Shown piece by piece: positions 20,596-32,766 of a stretch of 64,000 bases of DNA. How positions within the stretch are numbered: position 1 is the first letter of the stretch; each line of letters opens with the position of its first letter. Made by a program: the position numbers and the translations under genes. The notes under the pieces were generated by a model. That model ran no database searches, had not been told where the DNA came from, and saw nothing but the letters and a program-made list of their open reading frames with translations. The DNA comes from Ignavibacteria bacterium (lineage in GTDB: Bacteria > Bacteroidota > Ignavibacteria > Kapaibacteriales > Kapaibacteriaceae): assembly GCA_947495975.1 (NCBI GenBank), contig CANMBE010000004.1, positions 1-64,000 on the forward strand, written 5' to 3'.

Positions 20596-20627
20596 GCTAA
20601 CTCCGCAACTCCGTATCTCCGTATCTC
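20596..20627. repeat. degenerate 8-bp tandem repeat (four units)
   Basis: Four contiguous octamers GCTAACTC, CGCAACTC, CGTATCTC, CGTATCTC between two minus-strand genes. The same periodicity and a related unit (about YCCGTAAC) recur near 26108 and 31654. Spacers and unit length are unlike CRISPR. Confidence 0.6.
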
Positions 20628-20643
20628 TTTCAATATCCAGCTC

Positions 20644-21906
20644 TTACGTCTTCTGCTTCTTTTTTTTTGCGGCTGGAAAGAGGACGTTGTTGAGAATCAA
20701 CCTGTAGCCGGGCGATGTAGGGTGCAGGGCAAGGTCTGTGGGCGGATCTCCCACGGCATGGCGGTAGTCCTCGGGATCGTGGCCGCCGTACCATGTAAAG
20801 GTGCCCCTTCCTACGTTTCCATGGATGTAACGCACCTGGTCAGTCCCATCGCGCTCACCGAGCACTGTTACGGACTTCTTTACAAGCTCCTTGTGAAAGG
20901 CCGTGGTTTGACCCAGGAAGCCTTTCACCACGTTTACATGACACTGAGTAAGCATGGTAGGAACGGGGTCGTATTTGGCCGAGAAGTTGAAGAGGGTGAA
21001 ATAATCACTTGCCTCGGTCTGAATGATGGTGTTTGCATCAACATCAATGTCTGAGAACTCATATTGCAGGGGGTTCATGGAGACCGTAAAGTTCTCGAAT
21101 GCAAAACATGGAGCATAATCTAGCTTCTCATTTGCATCGCGGTCCATCGGGTCGGCGTCAAAGATTACGTCGCAGATGTCCAGGCTGGAGGCCGCAAGCG
21201 CAATATCGTACGTATCCGTAGCGCTACACATGGCAAACATGAAGCCGCCATTGGCTACAAACTCGCGAATGCGCTCGGCCACAGATCGCTTAAGCTCACT
21301 TACCTTTCTAAAACCAAGCTTCCGGGCAGAGTTCTCAAGCGCCGCAACCTGCTGGATATACCAGCTTTCGCCCGCAGAGCTTGCGTAGAACTTGCCGTGC
21401 TGACCTGTGAAGTCCTCGTGATGCAGGTGCAGCCAATCGTATTCTGTGAGCTTCCCTTTTATCACATCCTCATCCCAAATCTTCTCGTATTTCACCTCTG
21501 CATATTCAAGCACAAGCGTAACGGCATCATCCCATGGCCGAAACCCTGGTGGAGCATAGACGGCAATCTTGGGTGCTTTCTCGAGGCGGACAACATCCAT
21601 GTTGTTCTTTTCAGATTGCACCTCGGAGTACATCGTAGCTGCCGCTGAGCCGTCAATCACATCAAAAGAAACACCACGAATTCTACATTCCGATGCAATC
21701 TCTTGTGAAAAGTCGGTGATGAAGGAGCCCCCTCTATAATTCAACATCCAGTCTACCGGCTGTTCCTTTGTAAGGACCCAGTACACAAGGCCATAGGCCT
21801 TAAGATGGTTTGATTGATCAAGATCCATTGGGATCATAAGTTTTTGTCCAGCCGCTATACCAGCGGCCAGGATGAAAACAAGAACTATGGAACTGAGCTG
21901 TTTCAT
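20644..21906 (-). CDS. conserved exported Bacteroidota protein (family often labelled 'asparagine synthetase B')
   Basis: 420 residues starting with a signal peptide (MKQLSSIVLVFILAAGIAAG). Strongly conserved stretches that I recall from a Bacteroidota family are present: 'LMIPMDLDQSNHLKAYGL', 'VDWMLNYRGGSF', 'KAPKIAVYAPPG', 'YDWLHLHHEDFTGQ', 'FMFAMCSATDTYDIALAA', 'GQTTAFHKELVK', 'YGGHDPEDYRH' and 'GYRLILNNVLFPAAKKK'. Databases often label the family asparagine synthetase B, but I see no glutaminase or AMP-forming synthetase motifs. The repeated His, Asp and 'GGF.FAMC' elements look more like a ThuA/glutamine-amidotransferase-like fold. True function unknown. Divergent from the ketolase gene. 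Confidence 0.8.
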   Translation of the reverse strand: MKQLSSIVLVFILAAGIAAGQKLMIPMDLDQSNHLKAYGLVYWVLTKEQPVDWMLNYRGGSFITDFSQEIASECRIRGVSFDVIDGSAAATMYSEVQSEKNNMDVVRLEKAPKIAVYAPPGFRPWDDAVTLVLEYAEVKYEKIWDEDVIKGKLTEYDWLHLHHEDFTGQHGKFYASSAGESWYIQQVAALENSARKLGFRKVSELKRSVAERIREFVANGGFMFAMCSATDTYDIALAASSLDICDVIFDADPMDRDANEKLDYAPCFAFENFTVSMNPLQYEFSDIDVDANTIIQTEASDYFTLFNFSAKYDPVPTMLTQCHVNVVKGFLGQTTAFHKELVKKSVTVLGERDGTDQVRYIHGNVGRGTFTWYGGHDPEDYRHAVGDPPTDLALHPTSPGYRLILNNVLFPAAKKKKQKT

Positions 21907-21963
21907 TGAGGGTTTGGGTACGAATCTAACACCCACATATTGCGCCGTCGCTATCATTGCATC

Positions 21964-25730: not shown

Positions 25731-25958
25731 CTACGCCGAGATCTCCTCCCTATACCAAGCCTCTACCTTCTGACGCGCCCACGGCGTCTTGCGTAGGAAT
25801 GCGAGGCTCGACTTCACAGTAGGACTCGTTGTAAAACAGCGAATGGGAATGCGAATGCCCATTTCTGTCCACCCATGGTGATCCACAAGATATGTGAGGA
25901 TCATCTCTAGTGTTATGCCATGCATTGGGTCATGAGCATGACCCCGAGGAACGTTCAT
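25731..25958 (-). CDS. VF530-family (DUF2132) small DNA-binding protein
   Basis: 75 residues. The core reads '[21 protein letters not shown]', '[30 protein letters not shown]' (cores '[16 protein letters not shown]' and '[16 protein letters not shown]'), a near-complete VF530/DUF2132 signature. Start set at [10 protein letters not shown] with a GGAAG about ten bases upstream; the longer open frame upstream has no family similarity. A VF530 structure suggested DNA binding, but the role is unknown. The protein follows a structured intergenic region shared with icd. Confidence 0.85.
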
Positions 25959-26107
25959 TTGTATGGTGCTTCCGTTTCCTTTTGTAAGCCCTAAACTACT
26001 ATTTGTTGTCGCGATTAGCCCCTTGCCCTTCCTCTGCCATCCAGTAATATTCCCAAACATGACCGTAAAGGAGACCCCACTTCCCCTGTGCACCTTTGGC
26101 TCTGAAA

Positions 26108-26188
26108 AGGTATCTCTGTACCTTCGTGGCTCTGTACTTCTTGCGCGATAGCAGGCTATCGCGCAACCACGCAAACCCCGTAACCTCC
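26108..26188. repeat. 8-bp-period degenerate repeats flanking an inverted repeat
   Basis: Upstream of the isocitrate dehydrogenase gene, octamers TCTGTACC, TTCGTGGC, TCTGTACT and, after a hairpin, CGCGCAAC, CACGCAAA, CCCGTAAC follow each other with an approximate period of eight. The unit resembles those at 20596 and 31654. Confidence 0.5.
26141..26166. promoter_or_regulatory. perfect 12-bp inverted repeat upstream of icd
   Basis: TTGCGCGATAGC, two bases AG, then its exact complement GCTATCGCGCAA. It ends 31 bases before the icd ATG. There is no T-tract, so it is more likely an operator or 5'-UTR hairpin than a terminator. No regulator can be named. Confidence 0.6.
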
Positions 26189-26197
26189 CAAGGACCT

Positions 26198-27427
26198 ATG
26201 AATAAGATCAAAGTGGCTCAGCCGGTTGTTGAGCTTGATGGTGACGAAATGACCCGCATCATCTGGAAATTCATTAAGGATAAACTGATCCTTCCATACC
26301 TGGATGTGGATATCAAGTACTTTGATCTTGGGATGGAATACCGCGATGAAACAGACGATCAGGTTACCATTGATGCGGCAGAAGCGATCAAGAAATACCA
26401 CGTTGGTATAAAGTGCGCTACCATAACTCCCGATGAAGCTCGCGTAGAAGAGTTTGGACTCAAGAAGATGTGGAAGTCACCAAACGGAACGATTCGCAAC
26501 ATTCTTGATGGTACAGTATTTCGCGAGCCTATCGTGTGTGCCAACGTTCCACGTCTGGTGCCTAACTGGACAGCTCCGATCTGCATTGGACGTCATGCTT
26601 TTGGTGATCAGTACCGTGCAACGGACTTCGTTACGAAGGGCACAGGCAAACTCACGATTACGTACACACCAAATGATGGTGGTGAAGTTCAAAGCTTTGA
26701 TGTCTTTGACTTTAAAGGCGATGGTATTGCAATGGCGATGTACAACACTGATGAGTCTATTCATGGCTTCGCACGTGCATGTATGAATCAAGCTGTCAAC
26801 AAGCAATGGCCACTCTACCTCAGTACAAAAAATACAATCCTTAAAAAGTATGATGGTCGTTTCAAGGACATCTTTCAAGATGTCTTCGAAAACGAGTTTA
26901 AGGTAAAGTTTGAAGCTCTGGGTATTACATATGAGCATCGATTGATTGATGACATGGTTGCATCGGCTCTTAAGTGGAATGGCAACTTTGTTTGGGCTTG
27001 CAAGAATTACGATGGTGATGTACAGAGCGATACTGTTGCACAGGGGTTTGGATCTCTTGGCCTCATGACAAGCGTACTTATCACGCCAGACGGTTCAACG
27101 ATGGAAGCTGAGGCAGCTCATGGAACGGTAACGCGCCACTACCGAGATCATCAACAAGGCAAGCCAACGTCAACAAATCCAATCGCATCAATTTTTGCGT
27201 GGACAAGGGGCTTAGAGTTCCGCGGAAAACTCGATGGCAATCAAGAACTCATCAACTTCTGTCAGACACTTGAAAAGGTTTGTGTAGACGTTGTTGAGAG
27301 CGGCCGAATGACCAAGGATCTTGCTGTCTGCATTCACGGCAACAAAGTACAACACGGCGAACACTACCTCTACACGGAGGAATTTCTCGACGCACTAGAT
27401 TCTGAACTAAAAGCTCGTTTAGCCTAG
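26198..27427 (+). CDS. icd: isocitrate dehydrogenase (NADP+), eukaryotic-like type
   Basis: 409 residues, start [20 protein letters not shown] with AAGGA just upstream; the longer frame upstream runs through the intergenic repeats and is not coding. It is the type found in mitochondria/cytosol and several bacteria, not the E. coli form: '[16 protein letters not shown]', '[23 protein letters not shown]' (substrate loop, core '[15 protein letters not shown]'), '[14 protein letters not shown]', '[15 protein letters not shown]', '[14 protein letters not shown]' and '[13 protein letters not shown]'. It converts isocitrate to 2-oxoglutarate and makes NADPH in the TCA cycle. Convergent with the cyclophilin gene, the stop codons overlapping in a CTAG. 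Confidence 0.96.
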
Positions 27428-31569: not shown

Positions 31570-31610
31570 TCTCAGAAGAAGGTCCTGAGGTACTCAACAA
31601 AAACGACATG

Positions 31611-31644
31611 TAGCGTATTGGTTAGCCCAATACGCTATTTTTTT
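31611..31644 (+). terminator. Rho-independent terminator of the helicase gene
   Basis: Eleven-bp stem TAGCGTATTGG / CCAATACGCTA with a five-base loop followed by seven T. Confidence 0.93.
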
Positions 31645-31653
31645 GACCATAAT

Positions 31654-31701
31654 CTCGTAACCCTGTAGCCCCATAGCCACATAACTCGGCAATCCGATAG
31701 C
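31654..31701. repeat. degenerate 8-bp tandem repeat (six units)
   Basis: CTCGTAAC, CCTGTAGC, CCCATAGC, CACATAAC, TCGGCAAT, CCGATAGC in unbroken register, consensus near CCCATARC. It sits directly between the helicase terminator and the promoter region of the RGG/Q-rich gene. Confidence 0.65.
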
Positions 31702-31709
31702 TCTCTTCG

Positions 31710-31717
31710 TATATTTG
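31710..31717 (+). promoter_or_regulatory. candidate -7 element (TATATTTG)
   Basis: TATATTTG matches TAnnTTTG and is 36 bases upstream of the ATG at 31753, right after the octamer repeat. No convincing -33 TTTG is seen. Confidence 0.35.
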
Positions 31718-31752
31718 CAATTCATTACCGCCCCCAATAGCCTACCTACCTC

Positions 31753-32766
31753 ATGACCCAGTCAGACGATCAAAACAGCGCTCCATCACAACCCTCTTCT
31801 TCTCATGAAGGGGGCTCAGCAGACGGTGAAGGCAGGAATAGACGTCGCAGACGTCGTGGCGGTGGCGGTGGTGGTGGACGGCGTCCAGAAGGACAGCCGC
31901 AAGAGCCGCGCGAGGGTGCACCAGCTGCGGATGACCGACCTTCAATTCGGCACGCTGACACCAGAACAGAACGGCCAACGGATGGCCAGCCAGATTCTCA
32001 GCAGAACCGCCAGCAGGACCCACAGCAGAATCGCCAGCCACTACGTGCCGATGATGGCGCAGGTGATGGTGATGCTCAAGGTGCCGATGCAGACCGCAAA
32101 CGCAAACGTCGTCGTAACAAAAAGAAGCCAGGAGCGGGAGATCCCAACGCGCAGACAGAACAGCGCCAAACATCGGATGCCCCTACTCAGCAGTCTCAAC
32201 AATCGCAACAACCACAGCAGCAACCACAGCAGCAATCGCAATCGGGTCAACGCGGACGCCAGGGTGATCGCAAGCGCCCTGAGCCTGCAGAAAAGAAAGA
32301 ACGAGCACCACGTGGATCAGTGTTGCAACGTCGTGTTACACGTGGCGAATACAATGACGCTCCTGCGCAGAAAGAAGAAGCTGTTGTAGCAACTCCGGTC
32401 AATGCCATCAATGTTGAGGCATACATTGCCCATCATAAGGGATGGCAACGCGAAGTTCTGACAACTCTACGGTCAATCATTCTATCGGCTGGCGGTCAGA
32501 TCGATGAGAGCATTCTATGGTCGCAGCCTGTCTATTCCGCCAATGGTCCGGTCTGCTACCTCAAAGCATTCACAGATCATGTGAACTTTGGTTTTTGGCG
32601 GGGCACAGAACTTGATGATCCTGAGTCGCTGCTCGTGGGCGACATGACGAAGATGCGTCACGTTACCCTTCAGTCAACGAACGACATCAAGGGCGACCTC
32701 TTTGAATCGATGGTTCGTCAGGCTGTGCGCTTAAACCGCGATAAGGGCGACCCAACGCTCTCATAA
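31753..32766 (+). CDS. RGG/Gln-rich disordered protein with C-terminal DUF1801 domain
   Basis: 337 residues. Residues 1-~205 are low-complexity and charged: an Arg/Gly block (NRRRRRRGGGGGGGRRPEG), Gln-rich stretches (QQSQQSQQPQQQPQQQSQS), and basic KRKRRRNKKK. Residues ~215-337 form a DUF1801 (YdhG/YjbR-like) domain: 'IDESILWSQPVYSANGPVCYLKA' (core 'ESILWSQPVYSANGPVCYL'), 'HVNFGFWRGTEL' and 'DPESLLVGDMTKMRHV'. The arm is reminiscent of RNA-binding tails on Bacteroidota helicases and ribosomal factors. An association with the helicase gene next door is a guess. A plus-strand family domain makes this the real frame, although the opposite strand is also open in the N-terminal half. Confidence 0.8.
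   Translation: MTQSDDQNSAPSQPSSSHEGGSADGEGRNRRRRRRGGGGGGGRRPEGQPQEPREGAPAADDRPSIRHADTRTERPTDGQPDSQQNRQQDPQQNRQPLRADDGAGDGDAQGADADRKRKRRRNKKKPGAGDPNAQTEQRQTSDAPTQQSQQSQQPQQQPQQQSQSGQRGRQGDRKRPEPAEKKERAPRGSVLQRRVTRGEYNDAPAQKEEAVVATPVNAINVEAYIAHHKGWQREVLTTLRSIILSAGGQIDESILWSQPVYSANGPVCYLKAFTDHVNFGFWRGTELDDPESLLVGDMTKMRHVTLQSTNDIKGDLFESMVRQAVRLNRDKGDPTLS

Follow-up and report, generated by a model that had tools for sequence, protein, structure and literature searches.

What kind of repeat stands before the gene at 31753, and what put it there? The window (the whole stretch of 64,000 nucleotides analyzed here) contains a run of octamers between this gene and its upstream neighbor. The first-pass annotation had described it as six unbroken octamers at 31654-31701, with related arrays at 20596-20627 and 26108-26188, all three being intergenic and beside a promoter. 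Using our own gene calls, made with a hexamer model or as longest open reading frames and without curated annotation, the three places were indeed intergenic. Proximity to a promoter held at 31654 and was plausible at 26108, but the array at 20596 adjoins the 3′ end of a gene. The relevant features were:

20601-20627, plus strand: clearest array of the window, CTCCGCAA CTCCGTAT CTCCGTAT CTC, heading into the 3′ end of the minus-strand gene 20644-21957
26114-26137, plus strand: three-unit array CTCTGTAC CTTCGTGG CTCTGTAC, in the divergent gap before the isocitrate dehydrogenase gene
26141-26166 (26 bp), no strand assigned: hairpin TTGCGCGATAGC-AG-GCTATCGCGCAA, from sequence and folding, outside the octamer array
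26176-26183, plus strand: lone unit CCCCGTAA, before the ATG at 26198
31610-31644, plus strand: intrinsic-terminator-like hairpin and T-run (sequence and folding) after an RhlE-like helicase gene, upstream of the 31654 array
31653/31654-31700/31701, plus strand: degenerate array of about six octamers, its pyrimidine strand pointing to the gene at 31753
31710-31717, plus strand: TATATTTG, a Bacteroidota-type -7 element immediately downstream of that array
31753-32766, plus strand: gene 3′ of the array, encoding a protein Arg/Gly-rich near its N-terminus and with a C-terminal DUF1801

Octamer Arrays of the Window

The six in-register octamers at 31654-31701 (CTCGTAAC CCTGTAGC CCCATAGC CACATAAC TCGGCAAT CCGATAGC) matched at 22 of 40 positions at lag 8, and other lags from 5 to 12 gave 7-15 matches of 36-43. 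The array is in register but degenerate. In a matrix scan it was matched at 31653-31692 with a score of only 11.7, which is background level (20 hits on real versus 15 on reversed sequence at a cut-off of 12, and 41 versus 33 at a cut-off of 10). The array at 20596-20627 was upheld, with identity at 19 of 24 positions at lag 8 and about three and a half better-kept units; it was the only one of the three places reported by Tandem Repeats Finder (20601-20627, period 8, 3.4 copies). The region 26108-26188 turned out not to be one array, since only the three units at 26114-26137 are contiguous and are followed by a separate hairpin and one isolated unit. That hairpin is strong but lacks a T-run, and comparable hairpins adjoin arrays in loci L006 and L027. 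The gene for a VF530 family DNA-binding protein (25731-26060, minus strand) lies divergent from the isocitrate dehydrogenase gene.

In a window-wide ranking by lag-8 identity, the arrays at 20596 and 31654 took the top two places. Against 60 simulated windows (first-order Markov, 1-kb local composition), two regions with at least 17 of 24 lag-8 matches were observed versus a simulated mean of 0.17, two or more occurring in 3% of simulated windows, and one region with at least 20 of 24 versus a mean of 0.0. When the weaker kind was counted over 11 lags (multiples of 3 excluded), 1.37 regions were simulated and 2 observed, both at lag 8. The repeat is thus real but uneven, being sound at 20596, loosely right at 26108, and marginal at 31654 on sequence statistics alone. 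These expectations, together with the background-level matrix score, would be compatible with 31654-31701 being chance low-complexity sequence, and support for this array must come from orthologs. In two other genomes of the genus (G004 and G002), two units occupy the same slot before the same promoter, and the word recurs across the genome (see below), so that a chance origin is very improbable.

The region 31605-31752 did not fold better than shuffled sequences (z -1.35). Searches against Rfam at the gathering score matched two tRNAs and nothing else in the window, both away from the arrays, and likewise nothing but two tRNAs in 11 array loci. Two other readings were discarded. CTCCGTAA has TAA in all frames and could have acted as a three-frame stop signal, but CTCCGTAT, the commonest unit of the genome, contains no stop. 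The hairpin GCGATAGC was considered as a general partner of the arrays, and a single strict copy, at 26146, was present in 464 kb.

Recurrence of the Unit in the Genome and the Genus

The unit recurs in the genome to which the window belongs (G000; 2.18 Mb, 24 contigs), where it takes the form YTCCGTAW. The doublet CTCCGTAACTCCGTA, with up to two mismatches, was found at 41 places of the whole genome, several of them overlapping within one array, versus 5 for the reversed control. A profile search, as had been proposed with the original claim, was run on a 464-kb sample (400 kb of contigs C1 and C3, plus the window) and yielded 11 arrays at a score of at least 18 versus 0 on reversed sequence; 20 column-permuted matrices gave a mean of 0.8 and a maximum of 5. 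The consensus of these arrays was CTCCGTAT. The anticipated lag-8 signal was also detected: clear arrays were present in 6 of 201 intergenic gaps of at least 20 bp, every one of period 8, and the excess in pooled intergenic identity at lag 8 was small (0.265 versus about 0.254). The 31654 array was not among the six gaps that the period detector picked in these 201 gaps (464 kb). The array detectors used in this work were applied to the same data on which they had been tuned.

Ten further genus members were analyzed (G001-G010). The sample holds one genome per species, and many of the congener loci were picked for holding arrays. The doublet was abundant in G010 (408 places), G002 (161), G006 (140), G004 (114), G009 (60), and G001 (20), and at control level in G003, G005, G007, and G008 (3, 1, 4, and 4 places versus 8, 6, 3, and 3 in controls). 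Among the 60 nearest genomes it was abundant in genus members only. A three-unit pattern with up to three mismatches had matches in 6 of 296 phylum genomes, 4 of the 296 being from the genus: G000, G006, and G001 within it, and outside it G103 and G178, from another genus and with CTCTGTAA arrays (8 places versus 4 in the control for G178), and G164, where sequence and control gave one place each. The octamer unit is therefore patchily distributed within the genus and seldom seen among the other phylum members sampled.

Arrays of the congeners had periods of 7, 8, and 9 and were present in 13 of 87 gaps in G010, 17 of 80 in G002, 6 of 76 in G007 (five of period 7, one of period 9), and 1 of 66 in G008; samples were of 160-200 kb each, those of G010 and G002 coming from contigs known to hold arrays. 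Pooled intergenic identity in G010 reached 0.298 at lag 8 and 0.308 at lag 16. The longest arrays have 43 units (G010). In the rich congeners, arrays show 16-base alternating patterns, and some span from gene edge to gene edge with opposite arms; inverted arms often fill the intergenic gap there, and in the loci inspected they are not simple complements. Comparing 7-base units (GTAACTA, GTAATTG, GTCATCA) with 8-base ones (GTAAYTCC, GTAATTCA), we see what appears to be a shared GTMAYY core when both are oriented outward.

Contigs C11 and C94 of G010 (L078 and L085) start within long octamer arrays, and arrays may therefore break assemblies and be undercounted. Another intergenic octamer family, CATACTAG/CACATTAG and TAGTGTGC, occurs in G002 (L170:3706-3796 and L176:15759-15829).

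Arrays at Orthologous Sites

Upstream of the gene at 31753, the -7 element TATATTTG is conserved in 10 of the 11 genus orthologs and differs by one change in G004 (TATATTAG). The array itself is present in 3 of the 11 genomes, with about six units in G000 and two each in G004 and G002, and absent from the other 8. The site before the isocitrate dehydrogenase gene was readable in 10 of 11 genomes. It was occupied by three units in G000, by seven in G004, and by one or two in G002; 7 genomes had no array. The 3′ side of gene 20644 could be read in 10 genomes (85 bp only in G003), G002 being the one in which the gene was not located. Two genomes, G000 and G010, have octamers there, G004 has heptamers and then octamer-like units, and 7 have no array.

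A fourth site was provided by lepA, also readable in 10 of 11 genomes, in all 10 of which CCGTA[AT][CT]TT directly precedes the ATG. Upstream of this sequence were octamers (G000, G002), heptamers (G001, G010), longer units (G004, G006), a single copy of the G006 unit followed by masked bases (G009), or no array (G003, G005, G008). These four comparisons indicated that promoters stay and arrays come and go. Slippage, one of two processes put forward by the first-pass annotation, is borne out between species, as orthologous sites hold none, two, seven, or at least 20 units and long arrays alternate every 16 bases. The other, selection for an 8-bp spacing, found no support, in view of the different unit lengths beside the same lepA promoter and of the periods of 7, 8, and 9 in congeners. 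In G010 and G001 (L314, L318), the lepA heptamer arrays have mirrored arms and stop at the conserved promoter; the G001 unit, CCGTAAT, equals the promoter flank. In G004 (L309), a longer tandem repeat containing the hairpin GGTCACGGCATGCCGTGACC adjoins the same promoter.

Similarity between the Unit and the Promoter Motif

The motif TAnnTTTG was found before genes of G000 at 34 sites versus 3.8 expected. A T9SS sorting domain and TAnnTTTG promoters are both present in this genome and would agree with an assignment to Bacteroidota in the broad sense. In the array-poor genomes G007 (17 sites) and G008 (12 sites), position -1 to the motif is G in 65% and 75% of sites, and position -2 is C in 41% and 50%, respectively. 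With G before most of these TAnnTTTG sites, and CG before many, the extended motif YCCGTAnnTTTGC contains the unit YTCCGTAN. This similarity was noticed post hoc.

An in-register TA..TT[TG] right after the last unit was found in 8 of 48 arrays running into gene starts and in 0 of 40 running into 3′ ends (p = 0.007). With a looser definition of the -7 element (up to one mismatch), the values were 8 of 48 at starts, 1 of 40 at 3′ ends, and 101 of 955 for internal units, and the contrast between array ends at starts and internal units was gone. In a phase count, 16 of 26 cases were in phase 0, a figure biased by the unit itself lying one or two changes from the promoter motif; a re-count gave 7 of 14 in phase 0 and 4 in phase 4. 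In the window itself, the register of TATATTTG is offset by 4 bp from that of the 31653 array, and this array covers the place where, at the usual spacing, a -33 element would lie. Judged from these motifs, seeding of the arrays by promoters is likely, and only likely, since the strict motif supports a common register, the looser one does not, and the 31653 array is out of register.

The explanation that we favor, and that we give an even chance of being correct, is that the arrays are slippage-driven intergenic satellites, probably seeded from promoter-like sequence, combined with inverted duplication; this reading points to rapid turnover of repeats and not to a novel genetic system. The promoter, with the upstream half of whose genus motif YCCGTAnnTTTGC the octamer coincides, would be the seed; slippage during replication, or unequal exchange, would add and remove tandem copies in the non-coding slots that border genes; and inverted arms could arise by inverted (fold-back) duplication. 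Any effect on expression would be a by-product and not the reason for the arrays. Such satellites would account for the patchy distribution, the differences in copy number and period, and the proximity to promoters. Within the genus, the number of array places beside conserved promoters ranges from none to hundreds, a natural gradient along which effects on transcription could be measured.

Orientation Relative to Genes

Over all loci, 84 of 110 arrays had their pyrimidine strand running outward, into whichever gene was nearer (p 2.6e-8). By gap type, the counts were 23 of 33 (++), 24 of 31 (--), 17 of 21 (+-), and 20 of 25 (-+). Sorted by edge, arrays at gene starts were outward in 48 of 55 cases and those in convergent gaps in 17 of 21, a strong preference; for 3′ ends in co-directional gaps the preference was weak, with 19 of 34. 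Orientation counts dropped arrays lying mostly within called genes, and the genes removed were largely array-covered; duplicate loci were removed by sequence in the counts of 110 arrays, of 48 and 40 arrays, of phases, and of cross-phylum pairs. The position-blind stretches alone gave 17 of 20 outward; these congener stretches were chosen without regard to array position, yet they come from array-holding contigs and are no random genome sample. For arrays roughly in mid-gap, another count gave 7 facing the nearer gene and 8 facing the other way; for clearly off-centre ones it gave 31 toward and 4 away at starts and 28 toward and 14 away at 3′ ends. Counting all periods, 24 arrays pointed toward the gene, 5 away, and 17 were unassignable, and pyrimidine content alone gave 35 and 11.

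Opposite neighbors within one gap of genus genomes, some of them overlapping, were arranged -+ in 15 cases and +- in 1. Within 30 bp of gene edges, summed over five genomes, the core GTMAYY occurred 61 times outward and 2 inward in array gaps versus 21 outward and 25 inward in gaps without arrays. If general, this orientation provides a countable rule, with the pyrimidine strand outward into the flanking gene, that slippage alone does not predict; its occurrence in convergent gaps is left unexplained by the satellites proposed above. The same unit at unrelated loci may likewise need a common recogniser or copying process.

Such a recogniser could be a DNA- or RNA-binding regulator whose binding sites, the octamer arrays, would form a genus-specific regulon. 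The gene-facing orientation, strongest at starts, and the identical unit at unrelated loci agree with this, as does position: the 48 arrays heading into a start within 40 bp end at a median of 11 bp before the start codon, and 23 of them end 8 to 12 bp before it. Regulators have also been proposed, in the excerpted texts, for TAACTGA heptamers (PMC4679880) and for paired sites of Geobacter (PMC2700814). A regulator accounts for orientation at starts but not for the poor conservation at orthologous genes, most of which have no array (present in 3 of 11, 3 of 10, and 3 of 10). Arrays also enter 3′ ends nearly as often as starts, 40 versus 48 within 40 bp, 31 of the 40 stopping between -7 and +8 bp, and the unit length changes at the same site. 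We consequently regard a regulon as doubtful and retain slippage-driven satellites as the better account.

Palindromic Octamer Elements in Other Phyla

An exact scan of a GTDB genome collection for three consecutive copies of CTCYGTRW returned at least 120 stretches. Among the matches listed were Cyanobacteria, Bacteroidales, Prevotella, Planctomycetes, Gemmatimonadetes, Acidobacteria, Geobacteraceae, Verrucomicrobia, Cloacimonadota, Spirochaetes, KSB1, Nitrospinota, and others. In the 60 nearest genomes taken together, doublets of CTCTGTGT stayed close to the control; G033 (13 places, control 7) and G011 had a few sites with one mismatch. The octamers of the other phyla are often palindromic, with 48 pairs in 80 of the listed loci. 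Among loci L178-L297 are palindromes whose arms comprise about three ACACAGAG/CTCTGTGT octamers, for example L197:3311-3368, L231:5684-5757, and L208:4684-4805. The element in L197 has a 29-bp stem (fold z -12.5), and that in L231 a z of -10.4.

These findings suggested a third explanation, in which the window arrays would be decayed or expanded copies of a dispersing, MITE-like palindrome, 5′-(ACACAGAG)n-core-(CTCTGTGT)n-3′, spread over many phyla. Opposite neighbors in the 120 listed loci were arranged -+ 68 times and +- 6 times, in the same sense as in the genus, and several copies with a common core occur in one genome (L180, L208, L247). For 66 distinct pairs, arm mismatches averaged 3.0 within and 4.2 across elements, and the two bases outside the arms matched as inverted repeats in 82% within versus 39% across elements. 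Such a palindrome would account for the pairs and for the spread of octamers. The window's genus, however, has another unit (GTAA/GTAT), the number of its units varies widely, and its arms, in the loci inspected, are no simple complements; the three units per arm seen in 165 of 218 arrays are to some extent a product of searching with a three-unit pattern; and several of the cross-phylum pairs derive from the same genomes. Descent of the window arrays from this palindrome is thus rather unlikely.

Of the 83 intergenic arrays in the 80 listed loci for which gene context was available, 62 faced outward, a count that leaves aside 47 arrays of at least three units inside crude ORF calls. A Rho site and a hairpin terminator were also considered as readings of the arrays and set aside; 5 of 26 paired gaps in other phyla were divergent. 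It is conceivable, though improbable, that all these repeats form a single widespread class of outward-facing palindromic intergenic elements, with units of 7-9 bases and a shared right-hand core GTMAYY or YTCYGTRN, occurring in many phyla, tending to face both starts and ends, and copied or maintained by some mechanism; the window arrays would then be a promoter-adjacent, partly decayed branch of it.

SbcD cuts palindromes, and loss of SbcCD was considered as a cause of array richness. No SbcD above the family cut-off was found in any of the 11 genus genomes, and it was also missed in 6 of 14 control genomes. Because all 11 genomes, array-rich or array-poor, fell below the cut-off, this result did not discriminate and the candidate was rejected.

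Comparison with Known Repeats

No published description of octamer arrays in this group was found among the top-ranked literature matches. As far as the excerpted sources go, the closest published items are the class 2 paired sites of Geobacter and the TAACTGA heptamers.

According to the excerpts of MacGregor (2015; PMC4679880), direct repeats of the heptamer TAACTGA occur in Beggiatoaceae, Cyanobacteria, and some Bacteroidetes, and are patchy by species. They resemble the window arrays in being short intergenic tandem arrays, mostly start-facing and patchy, but have a 7-base unit of one sequence, whereas the window unit has 8 bases, YTCCGTAW. In BOGUAY, 147 of 170 sets are directed toward a start codon and 12 toward a stop codon, with one inverted repeat only; in F. 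litoralis, 12 of 14 sets lie between genes in forward orientation ahead of a start, and one directly follows a stop, in reverse; and the 22 intergenic sets of Microcystis comprise 6 forward and 8 reverse to a start and 8 between stops (PMC4679880). In these excerpts, the BOGUAY data are in line with an outward orientation, and the Microcystis sample departs from it. Our octamers share the start-facing tendency, yet 40 of them, as noted, head into 3′ ends.

Class 2 predicted global regulator sites of Geobacter metallireducens, as excerpted, are multi-copy and have three tandem units with the consensus TCTCCGTS[Y], mostly in opposite-strand pairs at variable distance, with 21 paired sites (PMC2700814). 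As described there, they are discrete, three-unit sites with another unit end and are not linked to promoters; the window arrays, in contrast, are single, and their units end in GTAT, GTAA, or GTAC. Octamer arrays of congeners do form pairs, with unit numbers other than three. If the outward orientation is general, it joins the Geobacter paired sites, the TAACTGA heptamers, and the CTCTGTGT palindromes into one testable question.

The first-pass annotation had also judged the arrays unlike CRISPR, REP, or microsatellite sequences. With respect to CRISPR, which has longer repeats and unique spacers, the window arrays differ in being contiguous octamers without spacers. REP/BIME, ERIC, and MITE-type elements are dispersed intergenic palindromes. 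The palindromic pairs of congeners and other phyla are likewise dispersed and intergenic, but their arms are variable-number tandem octamers; these arms are inverted, and the bases flanking them match as inverted repeats. Long simple-sequence repeats of prokaryotes have units of 5-11 nt, are scattered across species, and have slippage as their proposed origin (Mrazek et al., 2007, as given in the excerpts of PMC4679880). By that description, the array at 20601-20627 and the G010 arrays qualify and the 31654 array is marginal, and copy number does differ between species at orthologous sites; unlike such repeats, the window arrays are degenerate and oriented relative to genes. The original judgment was accordingly fair for the window, but the congener arrays do resemble long simple-sequence repeats.
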